From Gammaproteobacteria bacterium (lineage in GTDB: Bacteria > Pseudomonadota > Gammaproteobacteria > SZUA-229), in the NCBI GenBank assembly GCA_015488885.1, contig WFMW01000066.1:1-64000 (forward strand): a stretch of DNA of 64,000 nucleotides, read 5' to 3'. The notes below the pieces were generated by a model that was not told the origin of the DNA, did no database searches, and worked only from the letters and a program-made list of their open reading frames with translations. Below, in pieces: positions 53,407 through 55,174 of the stretch (its first letter is position 1; every line of letters begins with the position of its first letter). The translations under genes were made by a program, and so were the position numbers.

Positions 53407-54021
53407 TTAGGGTTTTATTTCTGTCATTTTACGGATCACAATATTGACCATGGGTGCGTCTGATGCAAATGGCCCTTTTGCACCGGTTTTTACCTGTGAA
53501 ATTTTGTCCACCACGTCCTGGCCTTTAATCACCTTGCCAAATACAGTGTAACCCCAGCCACGTGATGTTTTGCTGGTGAAGTCTAAAAAACTGTTGTCGT
53601 TGGTATTGATAAAAAACTGATTGGTGGCAGAGTGTGGTGCGCTGGTGCGAGCCATGGCAATGGTGTATTTCAGGTTTTTCAGGCCATTGTCAGCTTCATT
53701 TTTTATAGGGTCATTGGTTGGTTTCTTCTCGAAATCAACGGTATAGCCGCCGCCCTGATTCATGAAATTTTTAATCACGCGATGAAAAATTGTGCCGTCA
53801 TAAGCGCCACTCCTGACATAGGCAAGAAAGTTTTTAACGGTTTTCGGTGCTTTGTCGGGGTAAAGCTCAATAATCATCGTTCCTTTACTGGTTTCCATTT
53901 TAACTTCCGGGTTATGCGTGGTGGCAGACCGGGCTATAGCGGGTAAAGTCAGTGTAATGCTAAGAAAAATCAGGTTTAAAAAGCGGGTTATTTTTTTCAT
54001 AATGATTCCTGTAGTATTCAA
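53407..54021 (-). CDS. Periplasmic cyclophilin-type peptidyl-prolyl isomerase
   Basis: VKMETSKGTMIIELYPDKAPKTVKNFLAYVRSGAYDGTIFHRVIKNFMNQGG; signal peptide. Confidence 0.95.
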   Translation of the reverse strand: MNTTGIIMKKITRFLNLIFLSITLTLPAIARSATTHNPEVKMETSKGTMIIELYPDKAPKTVKNFLAYVRSGAYDGTIFHRVIKNFMNQGGGYTVDFEKKPTNDPIKNEADNGLKNLKYTIAMARTSAPHSATNQFFINTNDNSFLDFTSKTSRGWGYTVFGKVIKGQDVVDKISQVKTGAKGPFASDAPMVNIVIRKMTEIKP

Positions 54022-54045: not shown

Positions 54046-54690
54046 TTAAGCTGCTGAAATATTCGCTTTGCGTGAAAGCTGGGTATGGTTGATGCCTAAA
54101 GAACGCAAAAATAAGGCGATTAATTCATGGCTGATTTCATGCAGGCTTACATCGATAAGCCGGTCTTCGGGTTGCAGGCATTTTTGAATCAGAGTTTCAC
54201 GCACCATACCCTGATACAGCAGGCCTGCTGATAAAATGGTGACTTCCCGGTTGGGTAAATCGTAGGGGAGAATGTCATTCAGGCCGTATTCGATATAATC
54301 GGTAAAACTTTTCCAGCGATTACGGAAAAAGGAGAGGCTGGCCGGGTTGCCTTCAAGCAGGCTCTGGAGTTCAATACGTAAAATATCGGGGTTATTCGCA
54401 ATGCTGTTGATATACACTTCTGTCATGCCCGCAAGGGCATCTTCGAAGTGCGTGCCATGCTTAACAATGGTATCGACATAACTTTGTCGTTGGCCGGCGA
54501 ATTGCTCCAGAACAGTATTGTAAAGCTCCTGCTTGGACTTGAAATGGCGATAGATAATGGCTGAGCTAACATTGGCTGCGCGGGCTATTTTATCAATGGA
54601 TATGCCGTGATAGCCTTTACTGGCAAAAAGACCCCGAGCAGCAGAGATAATAGATTCTCTGCGTTCGGGGCCTGAGAGTCGGGATTTGAT
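54046..54690 (-). CDS. TetR/AcrR-family regulator, probable non-canonical ATC start
   Basis: Frame extends upstream of the ORF-track start: KSRLSGPERRESIISAARGLFASKGYHGISIDKIARAANVSSAIIYRHFKSKQELYNTV (full HTH); no ATG/GTG/TTG between in-frame TAA and HTH; SD-like GAGGA before ATC. Confidence 0.75.
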   Translation of the reverse strand: MKSRLSGPERRESIISAARGLFASKGYHGISIDKIARAANVSSAIIYRHFKSKQELYNTVLEQFAGQRQSYVDTIVKHGTHFEDALAGMTEVYINSIANNPDILRIELQSLLEGNPASLSFFRNRWKSFTDYIEYGLNDILPYDLPNREVTILSAGLLYQGMVRETLIQKCLQPEDRLIDVSLHEISHELIALFLRSLGINHTQLSRKANISAA

Positions 54691-54737
54691 CGTTGTATCC
54701 TCAACGGTCTGTTAATGCAGACGGGTTAAGTAATAAC

Positions 54738-54971
54738 TTAAGCGGCTTTTTCAATCATGAAGACGAATTTGCCTTCTTCTTCACCGCTGGACTTCAGTGT
54801 ATTACCGGTCTGCTTGCAAAAAGCCTCGAAATCTTTAACCGAACCAGGGTCAGTGGCAATAATTTTCAATGTCTGGCCGTTTTCCAGTGCAGCAATGGCT
54901 TTTTTGGCACGCAGGATAGGTAGTGGGCAGTTTAAGCCGCTGGCATCTAATTCAGAATCAAAATCACTCAT
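54738..54971 (-). CDS. tusA: TusA/SirA-family sulfurtransferase
   Basis: LDASGLNCPLPILRAKKAIAAL...ATDPGSVKDFEAFCKQTGN. Confidence 0.94.
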   Translation of the reverse strand: MSDFDSELDASGLNCPLPILRAKKAIAALENGQTLKIIATDPGSVKDFEAFCKQTGNTLKSSGEEEGKFVFMIEKAA

Positions 54972-55174
54972 AAATCACCTCGTTAGGTTATGTATGCAGG
55001 CAGGATGCCTTGCATTTATAAAGTAAACGTTTACTAACTTAATGCTTAATATATGTTATGTCAAGTTAACCCGAGTAAATATATGGTATCCTTCTCAAGA
55101 AGCAGACGGTGATTGAATGTCATCTAATGCGTGTTCGCCTTAGTAATAGTATCGTCCCGGGATAATGCATATAT

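Follow-up and report, generated by a model that had tools for sequence, protein, structure and literature searches.

Initiation factor IF3 is essential in bacteria, and its gene infC does not start with a canonical codon: in E. coli the start is AUU, and S. aureus has AUA. Near-cognate starts are also on record for other genes: the repressor gene ccpN starts with AUA in both S. aureus and B. subtilis and is translated at 10-30% of AUG efficiency in S. aureus, cvfC1 uses AUU, and citZ carries an AUA start in one S. aureus lineage only, with reduced translation (PMC13009471). A separate study, which covers AUG, GUG and UUG only, found weak start codons to be offset by stronger Shine-Dalgarno (SD) sequences (Belinky et al., PMC5622118).

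Gene finders do not see genes that have near-cognate starts, and at the locus described here they would call either a fragment without its helix-turn-helix (HTH) or nothing at all. The locus lies in a 64,000-nucleotide stretch of a gammaproteobacterial genome (the window) and holds a tetR gene. A previous reading made from the DNA letters by themselves (the sequence-only reading) had proposed that this gene lacks an ATG, GTG or TTG start and has a candidate ATC initiation codon, which would be either a rare, weak start resembling that of infC or the trace of a single-base change that silenced the gene. We followed up this proposal by comparing the locus with its orthologs in the order, with infC and with a control sample of genes from the same genome.

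A complete TetR regulator without a canonical start codon

The minus-strand frame from 54711 to 54046 is open and encodes a whole TetR regulator, in which tetR (54046..54690, minus strand) takes up 214 codons from the ATC to the stop. The product carries an N-terminal TetR_N HTH (PF00440, E=3.4e-17, 62.4 bits against a curated cut-off of 24), which makes it a member of the TetR family, and it is 70-79% identical to the orthologs of the sister genus (g11) over almost the full length. As the sequence-only reading had stated, the HTH is complete and lies upstream of the start given in the list of open reading frames. The frame is closed on its 5' side by an in-frame TAA (54712..54714, minus strand), followed by the codons CAG ACC GTT GAG GAT ACA ACG ATC AAA TCC CGA; the lack of any ATG, GTG or TTG between this stop and the HTH was likewise confirmed, with codons, coordinates and strand as claimed. 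The first in-frame canonical codon is an ATG at 54426, downstream of the HTH.

The gene directly follows tusA in the same direction, which also agreed with the earlier description. The tusA gene (54738..54971, minus strand; PF01206, E=5.1e-24) encodes a sulfur carrier protein, is the first gene of the pair and lies directly 5' of tetR in orthologous loci as well. Expression of tetR by readthrough from tusA was considered and rejected, as the two frames differ and a second TAA stands in the tusA frame four codons past the tusA stop.

Ortholog start codons coincide with the ATC

Of 54 genomes from the order, this one included, tetR was found in 44. The sequence-only reading had suggested inspecting orthologs for an ATG at the ATC codon. 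A canonical start is present in each of the 43 orthologs that could be read: ATG in 15, TTG in 19 and GTG in 9. In 36 of the 43 it coincides exactly with the candidate ATC (54688..54690, minus strand), and the remaining seven, all from deep lineages, start 4-5 codons upstream. The agreement is complete in the nearer genera (27/27), and in many sister-genus loci an in-frame stop shortly upstream leaves TTG as the sole possible start. Because the ortholog start codons align there, the ATC represents the homology-defined initiation site of tetR, and by homology the putative start belongs at this codon and not at the preceding ACG.

A non-canonical start was seen in none of the 43 relatives (0/43), the genus being represented by one genome, so that conservation of the near-cognate start among relatives was not found. 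On this comparison of 43 relatives and the one genome of the genus, the ATC start is private to this species. A scan of genome contigs for tetR from the same species matched only TetRs of the same order and distant ones.

Weak canonical starts are common among the orthologs. The nearest genus uses TTG in 12 of 14 cases and GTG otherwise, and deeper genera often use ATG. Altogether, TTG or GTG starts account for 28 of the 43 orthologs (65%), compared with 13 of the 101 canonical starts that were aligned for genes sampled from this genome. The SD is stronger in the non-ATG than in the ATG orthologs (medians of -4.7 and -2.1 kcal/mol; p=0.007 by U test, with orthologs counted as independent despite their kinship). 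Common weak starts together with this SD trade-off fit a repressor that is kept scarce.

Initiation signals at the ATC and the start of infC

The GAGGA (54698..54702, minus strand) that the sequence-only reading had noted at SD distance lies 7 nt before the ATC, with a duplex energy of -6.0 kcal/mol with the anti-SD, which is reached at 3.8% of random positions. In a post hoc comparison, this SD is stronger than those of all 14 sister-genus orthologs (-2.1 to -5.8 kcal/mol), and in a second post hoc comparison the 60-nt fold of tetR (-7.5) is weaker than in all 14 (-9.1 to -20.3). The second codon, after the ATC, is AAA. Thus tetR has no canonical start from the upstream stop to the conserved N-terminus, and it has an ATC at the homology-defined start with an SD at initiation distance, both of which characterize a gene with a near-cognate start. 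A small hairpin is predicted in which the SD pairs with codons 3-5 and the ATC lies in the loop, and this predicted structure would count against AUC initiation. The tusA-tetR junction folds better than its shuffles (z=-3.4), and two small inverted repeats are located in it (TTAAGT-TATT-ACTTAA and GTCTG-CATTAA-CAGAC; 54707..54741, minus strand), which were not seen in the spacers of the sister genus.

In the same genome, infC (contig C58, 2174-2674) has no canonical in-frame start before its conserved N-terminus, and its start aligns to an ATC behind an AGG. Among the 31 family genomes that were read, own included, the infC start is ATC in 30 and ATT in the remaining one. Since the essential IF3 gene starts at ATC, ribosomes of this lineage must be able to initiate at AUC, and some tetR product is therefore to be expected. 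The ATC of infC and the well-spaced SD of tetR favour real AUC initiation on tetR.

The proposed tusA-tetR operon and its putative operator

A likely tusA promoter, TTGACA-N17-TAAGTT (55036..55064, minus strand), is followed by an operator-like palindrome, TTAGTAAACGTTTACTTT (55020..55037, minus strand); TTGAC and TAAGTT/TATGTT are kept in relatives before the palindrome, and the same palindromic pattern occurs there 5' of tusA. The pattern, TTAGTAAACGTTTACTTA, touches the -10 region of the promoter, is conserved in the sister genus and can still be made out in deeper genera, while the flanking DNA has diverged. Sister-genus loci carry one copy of it, and some other genera have two. The promoter of the operon that contains the regulator gene thus has a conserved palindrome, as in autoregulated TetR operons, and this site points to the tetR product as a local autorepressor of tusA-tetR. 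We infer from this sequence pattern that the product binds the tusA-promoter palindrome and represses its own operon.

The 18-nt site at 55037-55020 is the sole exact match in the genome. A genome-wide search for further targets with two mismatches gave 9 matches, compared with 21 for a reversed-pattern control, and because the palindrome matched less often than the control, the search gave no sign of targets outside the tusA-tetR operon. A limited search of the literature found no report of a conserved tusA-tetR autoregulatory operon, which is apparently undescribed.

In E. coli, TusA is a sulfur carrier feeding tRNA thiolation. Another TusA protein encoded in the genome also scores above the Pfam cut-off (contig C63, 16017-16220), and a weaker third match falls below it. 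Downstream of tetR, after a 45-nt gap and in the same direction, lies a gene for a cyclophilin-type peptidyl-prolyl isomerase (53407-54000), which has matches in only some of the orthologous tetR loci.

Probable translation from AUC and its alternatives

We give a probability of about 58% to the explanation that tetR encodes an AUC-initiated, weakly translated autorepressor whose start moved from UUG, GUG or AUG to AUC. The tusA-tetR mRNA would be transcribed from the operator-controlled promoter, and a weak start codon would keep the tetR product scarce through much of the order. In this species the start codon would have become AUC, at which the SD at good spacing and the AAA second codon would let ribosomes begin with fMet; relative to an AUG start, the efficiency would probably lie between a few and about ten per cent. 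The scarce TetR protein would then bind the palindrome and repress its own operon. AUC would be the start used on tetR, and translation of tetR would be sensitive to IF3. As a tentative and rather unlikely extension, the AUC start might tie tetR synthesis to IF3 and initiation-factor status, as with infC, so that tusA would be coupled to the condition of the translation machinery.

The weak, infC-like start is favoured over silencing, the other option of the sequence-only reading, because orthologs start exactly at the ATC and infC of the lineage starts at ATC, and the AUC is probably functional. Recent loss of the start codon is the main alternative, though a less likely one. One or more base changes to ATC would have effectively silenced the repressor and left tusA unrepressed, with the frame and operator not yet decayed. 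The restriction of the ATC to one species fits such a loss, as do the HTH changes and a mildly faster evolution of the protein, which runs at 1.23-1.27 times the sister-genus rate with two outgroups and at 0.98 of it with a third; five changes fall at family-invariant sites, some of them in the HTH, including one from Pro to Ser within its VSPAILYRHF stretch. However, tetR is intact and under long-term constraint (dN ~0.15 and dS >1.2 against the sister genus), and it is kept in 22 of the 22 order genomes that are at least 90% complete. The open reading frame, SD and operator are all intact, the SD being stronger than in relatives, and a lineage in which AUC must initiate on infC is expected to make some tetR product. 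The picture of a single-base change is itself uncertain, as the TTG or GTG of the nearest genus is two or more substitutions away from ATC.

Translation from the ACG immediately 5' of the ATC, which would give a product one residue longer, is very unlikely. This in-frame codon would use the same SD as the ATC and lies 5 nt from GAGG, but homology puts the tetR start at the ATC, infC of the lineage uses ATC, and in E. coli initiation is weaker at ACG than at AUC.

Equally improbable is a sequencing or assembly error that conceals a canonical start, even though the genome is a draft in 72 contigs. In a control sample of 417 kb of the same genome, 123 non-overlapping conserved frames were judged after most of the raw flags for a missing canonical start had turned out to be antisense shadow frames and were removed. 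Among these 123 sampled conserved genes, a canonical start is truly missing only from tetR and infC, and no sense gene among them was split by a frameshift, which makes an error unlikely; moreover, two wrong bases would be required starting from the TTG of the sister genus. Two further flags in the control were antisense shadow frames, and pcnB was rejected as a further gene of this kind with a near-cognate start, since the second codon of its frame is an ATG.

That the sole product is an HTH-less protein from the ATG at 54426, which the sequence-only reading had named as a refutation, is extremely improbable: this ATG is the first canonical in-frame start, but it has no SD (-1.0 kcal/mol), the Met it encodes is conserved in orthologs whose starts lie far upstream, and the HTH would be unlikely to remain intact if it were not translated.

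Comparison with known systems

If AUC-initiated translation of tetR is correct, the locus would offer a clear example from nature of how start codons evolve, in which a core, order-wide regulator moved onto AUC in one species; a UUG/GUG gene with a matching SD would have taken the next step where infC already needs AUC initiation. In addition, the locus suggests that tusA and tetR form a conserved autoregulatory operon.

Among the known systems, infC resembles tetR in having a near-cognate AUN start behind an SD that limits expression, and in this genome both genes have AUC. The odd start of infC, however, is kept throughout bacteria and has a role in IF3 feedback, whereas that of tetR is private to one species. 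The trade-off described for weak start codons (PMC5622118) is mirrored by the stronger SDs of the non-ATG tetR orthologs, although AUC lies outside the three codons of that work. Like tetR, ccpN is a repressor gene with a near-cognate start and an SD, and weak translation, which for tetR we infer, is common to the two; it differs in that its product is not a TetR protein, its start is AUA with an extended SD, and S. aureus and B. subtilis have both conserved this unusual start. Conservation of the near-cognate start in relatives therefore holds for infC and ccpN, and not for citZ or tetR. Although citZ is a gene for a metabolic enzyme, unlike tetR, it shares with tetR a lineage-restricted near-cognate start, and since it is still translated at a reduced level (PMC13009471), a private near-cognate start such as that of tetR can still be translated.
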